Assembly: GCA_001599355.1 (NCBI GenBank)
Contig: BCGQ01000001.1
Span: 499,135 to 563,134, forward strand
Length of the DNA stretch: 64,000 nt
Source: Nakazawaea peltata
Taxonomy: Eukaryota > Ascomycota > Pichiomycetes > Alaninales > Pachysolenaceae
Direction of reading: 5' to 3'
Numbering within the stretch: the first letter of the stretch is position 1; every line of letters begins with the position of its first letter. The notes below the pieces were generated by a model, which worked only from the letters and a program-made list of their open reading frames with translations, made no database searches and had not been told where the DNA came from. A program made the position numbers and the translations under genes. Positions 909 to 61,110 of this stretch are shown piece by piece.

Positions 909-3380
909 ATGGCTGAAGACAAGAAACCTAAGCTTGTGGATGCCTCTGGCGCTGAACCTTCAAAGGATGATTCAACCGCCACCGCAATTTTGAGAAAGAA
1001 GAAGAAGGATAATGCATTGATTGTCGATGACGCCGTTAACGATGACAACTCTGTCATCGCCATGTCCTCCAATACTATGGACAAATTGCAATTGTTCCGT
1101 GGTGACACCGTCCTTGTCACCGGTAAGAAGCGTAAGGACACCGTTTTGATCGTTTTAGCCGATGATGATTTAGAAGATGGTGTCGCTCGTATCAACCGTT
1201 GTGTTCGTAACAATTTGCGTGTTAGATTGGGTGATATCATCACTATTCATCCATGTCCTGACATCAAATACGCCTCTAGAATCTCCGTCTTGCCAATCGC
1301 CGACACCGTTGAAGGTATTACCGGTTCGTTATTCGACGTTTACTTGAAGCCTTACTTTGTCGAGGCTTACAGACCGGTCAGAAAGGGTGATTTATTCACT
1401 GTAAGAGGTGGTATGAGACAAGTAGAATTCAAAGTAGTCGAAGTTGATCCTTCTGAGTACGCCATTGTCGCCCAAGATACCATCATCCATTGTGAAGGTG
1501 AACCTATCAACAGAGAGGATGAGGAGAACAACTTGAGTGAAGTTGGTTATGATGATATTGGAGGTTGTAGAAAGCAGATGGCTCAGATCAGAGAAATGGT
1601 TGAATTGCCATTGAGACACCCTCAATTGTTCAAGACTATTGGTATAAAACCACCAAAGGGTGTCTTAATGTATGGTCCTCCAGGTACTGGTAAGACTTTG
1701 ATGGCAAGAGCCGTTGCTAATGAGACTGGTGCTTTCTTCTTCTTGATTAACGGTCCTGAAATCATGTCTAAGATGGCTGGTGAATCCGAATCCAATTTGA
1801 GAAAGGCTTTCGAAGAAGCTGAGAAGAATGCTCCTGCCATTATCTTCATTGATGAGATCGATTCTATTGCTCCAAAGAGAGACAAGACCAATGGTGAAGT
1901 TGAAAGAAGAGTTGTCTCCCAATTGTTGACTTTAATGGATGGTATGAAGGCCAGATCCAACGTTGTTGTTATCGCTGCCACTAACAGACCAAACTCTATC
2001 GATCCAGCTTTGAGAAGATTCGGTAGATTCGACAGAGAAGTTGATATCGGTATTCCAGATGCCACTGGTAGATTGGAAGTCTTGAGAATTCACACCAAGA
2101 ACATGAAGTTGGCCGATGACGTCGATTTAGAAGCCATTGCTGCCGAGACTCACGGTTATGTTGGTGCTGATATTGCTTCTTTATGTTCTGAAGCTGCCAT
2201 GCAACAAATCCGTGAAAAGATGGATCTTATCGATTTAGATGAAGAGACCATCGATGCCGAGGTTTTGGATTCTCTTGGTGTCACTATGGAGAACTTCAGA
2301 TTTGCTCTCGGTAACTCTAACCCATCTGCTTTGCGTGAGACCGTTGTTGAGAGTGTCAATGTCACTTGGGATGACATTGGAGGTTTGGACAAGATCAAGG
2401 AGGAATTGAAGGAGACTGTCGAGTACCCTGTCTTGCATCCAGAACAATATACCAAGTTTGGTTTATCCCCATCAAAGGGTGTACTTTTCTTTGGTCCACC
2501 AGGTACTGGTAAGACTTTGTTGGCTAAGGCTGTTGCTACCGAGGTTTCTGCTAACTTCATCTCTGTTAAAGGTCCAGAATTGTTATCTATGTGGTTCGGT
2601 GAATCCGAGTCTAACATTAGAGATATCTTCGATAAGGCTAGAGCTGCAGCTCCAACTGTTGTCTTCTTGGATGAATTGGATTCTATTGCTAAGGCTAGAG
2701 GTGGATCTGTAGGTGATGCAGGTGGTGCTTCTGACAGAGTTGTCAACCAATTGTTGACCGAGATGGATGGTATGAATGCCAAGAAGAATGTGTTTGTCAT
2801 TGGTGCTACCAACAGACCTGATCAAATTGATCCAGCTTTGTTGAGACCCGGTAGATTGGACCAGTTGATCTATGTTCCATTACCAGATGAGCAAGCTAGA
2901 TTATCGATCTTGCAACTGCAATTGAGAAAATCTCCATTGGAACCTGGATTAGATTTATTGGATATTGCCAAGATCACCCAAGGTTTCTCTGGTGCCGATT
3001 TGTCTTATATTCTGCAAAGATCAGCCAAGTTTGCTATCAAGGATCTGATCGAAGCCCAAAAGAGAAAGGATGCCGAAAAGGCCGCTTCCGGTGAGGTTAA
3101 AGCCGAAGGTGATGTTGAAATGGAAGAAGTCGAAGAAGAAGATCCAGTCCCATACATTTCTAGAGGTCATTTCGAAGAAGCCATGAAGACTGCCAAACGT
3201 TCTGTTTCCGATGCCGAGTTGAGACGTTACGAACTGTACGCTCAACAATTACAAGCTTCCAGAGGTCAATTTGGTAACTTCAGATTCAATGACACTCCAG
3301 GAGCCGCCCCAGCTGCTGGTACTGGTCAAGGTGGTGCTCAATTCGCTGAAGCTGAAGATGACGACGATTTATATAGTTAG
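909..3380 (+). CDS. CDC48: Cdc48/p97 AAA+ ATPase
   Basis: Hexameric segregase that unfolds ubiquitylated proteins in ERAD, proteasomal delivery and chromatin extraction. The 823-residue protein has the N domain (about 1-200) and two AAA modules. Walker A GPPGTGKT lies at 256-263 (D1) and again at 529-536 (D2). Walker B reads IIFIDEID in D1 and VVFLDELD in D2. The C terminus is DDDDLYS, close to the conserved acidic tail with a phosphorylatable tyrosine. The ATG at 909 is chosen because the sequence from MAEDKK onwards matches the family; the open frame upstream has only a TTG. Its four in-frame CTG codons (residues 670, 702, 713, 776) lie where S. cerevisiae has A, V, S and A as I recall it, part of the evidence for CUG-Ala. 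Confidence 0.98.
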
Positions 3381-3617
3381 TCGATCAATAAATTGTTAAG
3401 ATAAAGTTATTAGTGGTGTAATTGCAGCCCTCAAATTACCACAAAAGGTAATTTCTCGTTTTAAGTATTTCGCTCATCTCCTTCGATCGTAATCCCGAAA
3501 TAGTCGTGTGCGATCACCCATTTTCCTATTTAGGATCTCTTGGTGTCAGCTTTTTGGCAAAGTTCGGTTCCGCTTTTTCAAATCTTCCCACGCTGAAAGA
3601 AATTTTTCAGCTTTAAT

Positions 3618-3663
3618 AGGGGGAGAAATAGCAGGTTGCATAGGGGGAGGAAAAGTATATAAT
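3618..3663 (+). promoter_or_regulatory. IDH2 core promoter: two AGGGG elements and TATA box
   Basis: AGGGG, the stress-response element core bound by Msn2/4-type zinc fingers, occurs at 3618-3622 and 3642-3646. A TATATAAT box lies at 3656-3663, about 100 bases before the IDH2 ATG. Function is inferred from motif and spacing only. Confidence 0.45.
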
Positions 3664-3761
3664 AGAAATATCGGTAACTGATATTTTTTTTGGGATTGAT
3701 TTGAATATATTTATTGATTCTTGTGATAGTTCAGGAAATATTTATTATATTGACATACACA

Positions 3762-60011: not shown

Positions 60012-60235
60012 TTGCCATACCCTCCCAAGATGTGATGACGACCAAGACCCGACTTCTAACTGAGCAATGACCTGTATAATGAAACTTTCGTAATTTGCTA
60101 TCACCAGTTGTAGATATCCAGTAATTTGCTTAGTAGTGCAATATTTCCAAATCCGAAAAGTGCGCCTAACCGGCGTAACTCTTCGCTCATTTCTTCAGAG
60201 TTGCCGTTTTCGGCTATTGGGCGAAATTTTGTTAG

Positions 60236-60300
60236 GAGTCAAAAAAGTGAAAAAAAAAGAGTTGATTTGAACAGAGTTAAAAAGAGTCAAGAAAGAGTCA
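60236..60300 (+). promoter_or_regulatory. Three GAGTCA sites upstream of CIR1
   Basis: GAGTCA at 60236-60241, 60284-60289 and 60295-60300, ending 33 bases before the CIR1 ATG, within an A-rich plus strand. This is the Gcn4/AP-1-type half of TGASTCA. The nearest copy may even lie in the transcript leader, which would argue against a binding role for that copy. Confidence 0.4.
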
Positions 60301-60333
60301 ACTCAACCCAAGGCCGTAAAGAACGTAACCAAG

Positions 60334-61110
60334 ATGTCCTCAAAGTTAAGAATTCTCGTTCCAGTTAAAAGAGTTGTCGATGCTGCCTTGAAACCAAGAA
60401 TCAACAAGACCAATACCGGTGTCGAAACCAAAGGTATCAAGTTCAGTATGAACCCATTCGACGATATCGCTGTTGAAGAAGCTTGTAAGATCAAGAGCGC
60501 CCACAAAGGATTAGTAGAGAACATTCACGCTGTATCAATTGGTCCAACTAAGCTGCAAGATATCTTGAGAACTGCTTTGCTGAAAGGTTGTGATGATTCT
60601 ACTTTGGTCAGCATCAAGGAAGATGAAGAAGTTGAACCATTGCAAGTTTCCAAGATTTTGAAGAAAATTGCCGAGGAACAAAACTCCAATTTGATCATTA
60701 TGGGTAAGCAACTGATTGATGATGATTCTAATCAAACAGGTCAAATGTTGCTGCTGTTATTAGGATGGCCACAACTGACTAATGCTGCTAAGGTTGAGAT
60801 CCTTGATAATGGAGAATCCGTTCAAGTCACTAGAGAAATCGACGGTGGTGAACAGATTGTCAAGCTGAAATTACCAATGATTATCACTACTGATTTGAGA
60901 TTGAATGAGCCAAAGTTTGTCACCTTACCAAAAATGATGAAGGCCAAGAAGAAGCCATTGAAGAATGTCAAATTAGCTGATTTGGGTTTTGAATTGGAAA
61001 AGAGATTGGAAGTTTTGAAAGTTGAAGAACCTCTGGCCAGAAGTGCTGGTATTAAGGTTGCCAATGTTGATGAGTTGGTTGCTAAGTTGAAGGACTTGAA
61101 GGCTATTTAA
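60334..61110 (+). CDS. CIR1: Electron transfer flavoprotein beta subunit
   Basis: Mitochondrial ETF beta, accepting electrons from acyl-CoA and similar dehydrogenases. The 258-residue protein: RILVPVKRVVD at the start, KFSMNPFDDIAVEEA, AVSIGPTK, IIMGKQxIDDD, TGQMLxxLLGWPQxTNAAKVE and the signature VTREIDGGEQIVK...LPMIITTDLRLN. Positions marked x, and further ones at residues 74 and 83, are CTG; S. cerevisiae Cir1 as I recall it has Ala at nearly all and Gly at one. This gene alone nearly decides the CTG reading. The start is the first ATG in frame. Confidence 0.96.
   Translation: MSSKLRILVPVKRVVDAALKPRINKTNTGVETKGIKFSMNPFDDIAVEEACKIKSAHKGLVENIHAVSIGPTKLQDILRTALLKGCDDSTLVSIKEDEEVEPLQVSKILKKIAEEQNSNLIIMGKQLIDDDSNQTGQMLLLLLGWPQLTNAAKVEILDNGESVQVTREIDGGEQIVKLKLPMIITTDLRLNEPKFVTLPKMMKAKKKPLKNVKLADLGFELEKRLEVLKVEEPLARSAGIKVANVDELVAKLKDLKAI

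Follow-up and report, generated by a model that had tools for sequence, protein, structure and literature searches.

Introduction

The decoding of CUG as alanine (Ala) is a published genetic code, listed as NCBI translation table 26 (PMC5951914), and the finding described here is as such already known in kind. The clade that uses this code is described in PMC5951914 as comprising Pachysolen, Nakazawaea and Peterozyma, while the order Alaninales, which contains one family in the NCBI taxonomy, Pachysolenaceae, is treated as CUG-Ala in PMC11540330. PMC8629427 describes the codon-reassignment tool Codetta, with which 462 yeast species were screened. Here we consider the in-frame CTG codons of a 64-kb stretch of yeast nuclear DNA, referred to below as the window, which contains no N and has a GC content of 36 to 42% in 4-kb steps, with a mean of these steps of ~39.5%. 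A first-pass annotation of the window had proposed that CUG is read as Ala, and this is supported by a codon test with internal controls, which rejects leucine (Leu) strongly and serine (Ser) clearly. The genome almost certainly decodes CUG as Ala (NCBI table 26), and its most likely place is among the CUG-Ala yeasts (Alaninales: Pachysolen, Nakazawaea, Peterozyma).

Classification of CTG by alignment columns

Thirty open reading frames (ORFs) of at least 150 amino acids with an ATG start are present in the window, three of which overlap real genes on the opposite strand, and the gene set used throughout consists of 27 long ORFs with 15,124 sense codons. In-frame CTG accounts for 263 of these codons (17.4 per 1,000). 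To avoid bias, each CTG was replaced by X ahead of the alignment. Ten genes were aligned to relatives in the PDB, with PKC1 and sixteen other genes outside this comparison, and an alignment to the primary reference of the gene was obtained for 80 of the 124 CTG sites in the ten genes (80/263 for the whole window). Seventeen stretches were used from the 39 alignments obtained in the ten PDB searches, the others mostly duplicating a protein already represented or adding one more relative. The residues facing the unmasked codons of each amino acid in this window served as the profile of that amino acid, and a codon was assigned to the best-fitting profile after exclusion of its own counts. All 48 testable control codons were named correctly and keep their standard meaning; outside these controls stand nine sense codons for which there were fewer than 15 sites, as well as ATG, TGG and TGT, for which there is no second codon with sufficient sites to serve as yardstick.

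CTG was assigned to Ala across the 80 sites, with Ser and Leu fitting worse by 23.3 and 111.5 natural log units, respectively. When only the 39 sites with well-conserved surroundings are considered, 18 face Ala, and the margins of Ala over cysteine, Ser and Leu are 20.0, 24.8 and 107.0 log units, respectively (controls: 39/39 correct), while the use of all 17 reference stretches (126 cells) places Ala ahead of Ser by 42.8 and of Leu by 187.6 (controls: 50/50 correct). Bootstrapping of the 80 sites returned Ala in 1965/2000 replicates by site and 1979/2000 by gene, the remainder being Ser (21 by gene); for the 39 well-conserved sites the corresponding counts were 1919/2000 and 1955/2000, the remainder being mostly cysteine. 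In a gene-wise jackknife Ala came first whichever gene was dropped, with the smallest margin over Ser (12.9) observed without SNF2. The residues facing the 80 CTG codons are Ala (23), glutamate (9), Ser (8), lysine (7), glycine (5), Leu (5), cysteine, threonine and valine (4 each) and others. Ala thus stands opposite CTG at 23/80 sites, versus 9/466 for the other Leu codons and 24/310 for Ser codons, and neither 20,000 draws of 80 Leu-codon sites nor 20,000 draws of 80 Ser-codon sites reached 23 Ala. As read from these alignment columns, CTG means Ala in a genome whose other testable codons are standard, with little or no Leu-like share.

CTG codons at conserved alanine positions

The first-pass annotation had named ten CTG codons at positions where relatives carry Ala, in CDC48, YPK9, CIR1, ADE8 and ZRC1. 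All ten are in-frame CTG codons at the residues given, and seven of them (CDC48 670 and 776, YPK9 690, CIR1 74, 83, 127 and 140) occupy Ala-dominated columns, while ADE8 208, ZRC1 302 and CIR1 148 do not. Strong Ala sites beyond these were found in SNF2 (codons 993, 472, 548 and 1052), KRE2 (349), CIR1 (141) and PUP1 (202).

The SNF2 codons lie on the forward strand, within a reference chain that spans residues 255-1180; the alignment to STH1 covers query residue 427 onward. Codon 993 (49730..49732) stands at the Ala of the helicase motif DLQ-A-QDRAHRIGQ, with Ala in 4/4 alignments reaching the site, from three different proteins, and 12/12 neighbouring residues identical. Codon 472 (48167..48169) falls in the Ala column NDEE-A-Y (4/4 alignments reaching the site), codon 548 (48395..48397) in the column YYxV-A-HRIKE (5/5 alignments) and codon 1052 (49907..49909) in the column EEQE-A, where the SNF2 and STH1 references both carry Ala. 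A further CTG, SNF2 1370, faces Ala in the STH1 bromodomain piece and lies outside the 80-site count. For CDC48 five alignments were available, three of which represent one yeast protein, with the second and third references covering the C-terminal part only. CDC48 codon 670 (2916..2918, forward strand) faces Ala in 3/3 different proteins, and codon 776 (3234..3236, forward strand), in the motif RRYE-A, in 2/3, with methionine in p97. In YPK9, the alignment of which reaches approximately residue 1,121, codon 690 (54103..54105, reverse strand) stands at the Ala of the PP-A-LP motif, with Ala in one P5B-ATPase relative (three entries) and 12/12 neighbours identical. Codon 349 of the KRE2-like mannosyltransferase (30216..30218, reverse strand; WGD-A-P) faces Ala in 3/3 relatives, and codon 202 of PUP1, the proteasome beta-2 subunit (5975..5977, reverse strand; RGTT-A), in the PUP1 entries, all of which are one protein.

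As an independent check, the columns of CIR1 (forward strand) were examined at greater depth with the best 80 of at least 590 confirmed bacterial ETF-beta relatives, nearly all alphaproteobacterial by title, which yielded 79 distinct aligned rows. Of the eight CTG columns, five carry Ala in at least 90% of these sequences. Codon 74 (60553..60555) faces Ala in 78/79 and cysteine in the best PDB match, 1efv_B, while codon 83 (60580..60582) faces Ala in 79/79 as well as in 1efv_B. Codon 127 (60712..60714), in the motif GKQ-A, faces Ala in 74/79 and Ser in five, with Ala in 1efv_B. The tandem codons 140 and 141 (60751..60756) face Ala in 77/79 and 79/79, respectively, and Ala and glycine in 1efv_B. 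The column of codon 234 is mixed, with proline in 49/79 and Ala in 23/79.

Alternative readings of CTG

Several observations weigh against the Ala reading. Ala faces CTG at only 23/80 sites versus 164/278 for the GCN codons (stratification by gene gives an odds ratio of 0.33 with p 2e-4, and stratification by gene and neighbour identity one of 0.34), and a mixture of Ala and background explains the CTG columns at about half and half. This surplus of tolerant sites is in line with the less conserved positions reported in PMC5951914 for CUG in reassigned clades. No clear Ala column is found at three of the ten codons named at first, namely ADE8 208 (5801..5803, forward strand), where relatives carry Ala, valine or glutamate, ZRC1 302 (29207..29209, forward strand), where SLC30A1/ZnT1 carries threonine, and CIR1 148, where glycine (64/79) outnumbers Ala (15/79).

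Leu stands opposite five of the 80 CTG sites in the primary reference, including CIR1 codon 178 (60865..60867, forward strand), an almost invariant Leu column (76/79). The statement in the first-pass annotation that none of the invariant sites checked was Leu is to be corrected in this respect. These sites speak for the standard code, in which CUG would be Leu and the Ala columns would have arisen by chance substitution. The other Leu codons, however, face Leu at 309/466 sites versus 5/80 for CTG (Fisher p 1e-25), and this rate for CTG is not significantly above that of the GCN codons (9/278; p 0.32). Together with the deficit of 111.5 log units this renders the Leu reading so improbable as to be negligible.

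A Ser reading, of the kind known from the CUG-Ser1 (Candida) and Ser2 clades, is favoured by the eight of 80 sites that face Ser and by CDC48 codon 713 (3045..3047, forward strand), which falls in a Ser column (3/3 different proteins) and, as had been noted at first, suits Ser better than Ala. STU2, KRE2 and ADE8, when taken singly, favour Ser over Ala by 3.2, 0.7 and 0.4 log units, respectively, and STU2 alone also prefers Leu over Ala by 1.6. A 2014 column-based study, which weighed Leu against Ser, assigned Ser and not Ala to Pachysolen (PMC4986446), a caution that approaches of this kind may lead astray. Ser nevertheless lies 23.3 log units below Ala over all sites and faces only 8/80 CTG codons versus 126/310 Ser codons, while CTG occupies Ala columns in SNF2, CIR1, KRE2 and YPK9. 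We therefore consider a Ser code highly improbable. The codes of this yeast group have been misread before, as the assignment of Ser to Pachysolen (PMC4986446) and of Ala also to Ascoidea rubescens in a 2017 review (PMC5499181) illustrate; in the latter species CUG is Ser according to the mass spectrometry reported in PMC5951914.

CUG may also be decoded ambiguously, mostly as Ala with a measurable fraction of Ser or Leu, and ambiguous decoding of this codon is reported for Ascoidea asiatica and Candida albicans in PMC8629427. The mixture fits leave room for a Ser-like share of 7 to 9% and a Leu-like share of 0 to 4% of the sites: when Ala, Ser and Leu are fitted alongside background, their shares are 0.47, 0.09 and 0.001, respectively, while a fit with 20 profiles gives 0.069 Ser and 0.036 Leu, which counts to some extent against a pure Ala code. 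The addition of Ser to Ala and background, however, gains only 0.45 log units of fit, and the addition of Leu brings no gain. A Leu admixture was rejected, the small fits having put it at 0 to 0.001 and the 20-profile fit at 0.036. Column data are blind to misreading of a few per cent, such that ambiguous decoding is weakly tested by them; we regard it as unlikely, though less so than a Ser code.

Possible route of reassignment

As described in PMC5951914, alanyl- and seryl-tRNA synthetases require no particular anticodon bases, and a transfer RNA (tRNA) for Ala with the anticodon CAG can therefore read CUG. On this basis, a tRNA-Ala with its anticodon mutated to CAG would insert Ala at CUG in this genome, having been charged by alanyl-tRNA synthetase independently of the anticodon, and the ancestral tRNA-Leu(CAG) would have been lost. 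After this change the old CTG-Leu sites may have been erased while new CTG-Ala sites arose, with the latter favouring tolerant positions more than GCN codons do.

CTG usage among the genes

Under the Ala reading, CTG makes up 25% (263/1,032) of the Ala codons in all 27 genes. This share amounts to 31% in 23 genes, where 257 CTG, 278 GCT, 129 GCC, 121 GCA and 40 GCG codons are found, versus 3% in four strongly biased genes, which were picked after inspection of the codon counts. EFT2 and IDH1 contain no CTG, where ~21 would be expected at the mean rate. Decoding trouble was considered as a cause of this absence and rejected: GCA and GCG almost vanish from these two genes too (0 and 1 codons combined), and as such ordinary codon bias explains the lack of CTG. 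The CTG share falls as the TTG share of Leu codons rises (Spearman -0.46, p 0.015), while its correlation with the AGA share of arginine codons is not significant (Spearman -0.28, p 0.15). CTA is almost absent, with 18 of the 1,411 Leu codons left after the removal of CTG, a depletion that we list among the points in favour of the Ala reading. The Ala reading yields a residue composition of 9.3% Leu and 6.8% Ala; translation with the standard code gives 11.1% and 5.1%, respectively.

We tentatively propose, with somewhat less than even confidence, that the reassigned CTG is a main Ala codon of the lineage and not a rare leftover. Outside the four biased genes it is nearly as frequent as GCT, and it also occupies conserved Ala sites such as SNF2 DLQAQDRAH, although no single base change connects the GCN codons with CTG. 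If the proposal is true, a reassigned codon could fully repopulate genes, even at constrained sites, via two-step changes.

Additional genes and features of the window

The window carries compact yeast genes, recognised through PDB and Pfam matches, for which the exact names among paralogues, as well as the organisms of the PDB chains, are presumed. They encode CDC48, an isocitrate/isopropylmalate-type dehydrogenase (IDH1), ADE8, PUP1, TRS120, elongation factor 2, PKC1, a MIOS/SEA-type protein, a ZRC1-like transporter, a KRE2-like mannosyltransferase, a perilipin, a septin, a TAF7-type protein, SNF2, a YPK9-type P5B ATPase, STU2, CIR1, a D-glycerate-kinase/TDA10 relative and a cyclin. The TAF7-type protein (42335-43828, forward strand) has very long acidic runs, and the 4-kb step that contains it shows the highest GC skew. 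For two long ORFs, 24098-25921 on the forward strand and 31929-33353 on the reverse strand, Pfam gave no match at E 1e-4, and the former is rich in CTG (20/607 codons).

In the region 6560-7000 (reverse strand), a likely 5′ exon of PUP1 is located upstream of the listed ORF, with a TACTAAC branch-like site between the two, and the start of the listed ORF probably differs from the true gene start. In the region 38640-39480 (forward strand), the septin ORF lacks its N-terminal part, the Pfam match beginning at profile position 97. Upstream of it, stretches resembling septin occur in a different frame together with two TACTAAC sites, suggesting that this gene has introns. A gene for ribosomal protein S10 (Pfam S10_plectin; 36139-36495, reverse strand), below the 150-amino acid size of the ORF list, is probably spliced; its ORF holds one CTG, located before the Pfam-matched part and probably within an intron. 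ARAGORN identified no tRNA in the 64-kb window, and the Rfam search for RNA families gave only one small nucleolar RNA, the C/D-box snR48 (40680-40781, forward strand), just past the septin gene.

Comparison with known CUG codes

It follows from the Ala reading that standard-code protein models are wrong at CTG, as the first-pass annotation had pointed out. Gene models made under the standard or the Candida code would be wrong at ~1.7% of residues (263/15,124), some of them in conserved motifs, and the proteins of this genome need translation with NCBI table 26. The window represents a clean example of CUG-Ala, in which CTG is frequent enough for the spread of a reassigned codon back into genes to be studied.

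To our knowledge, no nuclear lineage other than the Pachysolen-type clade has a CUG-Ala code, and we infer from this that the genome belongs to that clade; nor do we know of any other change of a sense codon to Ala in a nuclear genome. The Pachysolen genome is much poorer in GC than the window, so that the species is probably a different one. With the code of Pachysolen tannophilus (NCBI table 26) the window shares CTG as Ala, the other testable codons being standard, and no difference in code is apparent. Nakazawaea and Peterozyma (Alaninales) are also placed in the Ala clade in PMC5951914, and the window would belong with them. In the CUG-Ser1 clade (Candida) the same codon has been reassigned, but the amino acid is Ser there and Ala in the window. 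CTA depletion, as reported in PMC6701816 for CUG-Ser clades and some standard-code yeasts in a study to which CUG-Ala species were external, is likewise observed in the window, even though its code is CUG-Ala. The window also conforms to the reassigned clades in the placement of CTG at less conserved sites (PMC5951914). According to the same source CUG is relatively rare in reassigned clades, and its share of 31% of the Ala codons in 23 genes of the window is, by comparison, mildly unexpected.

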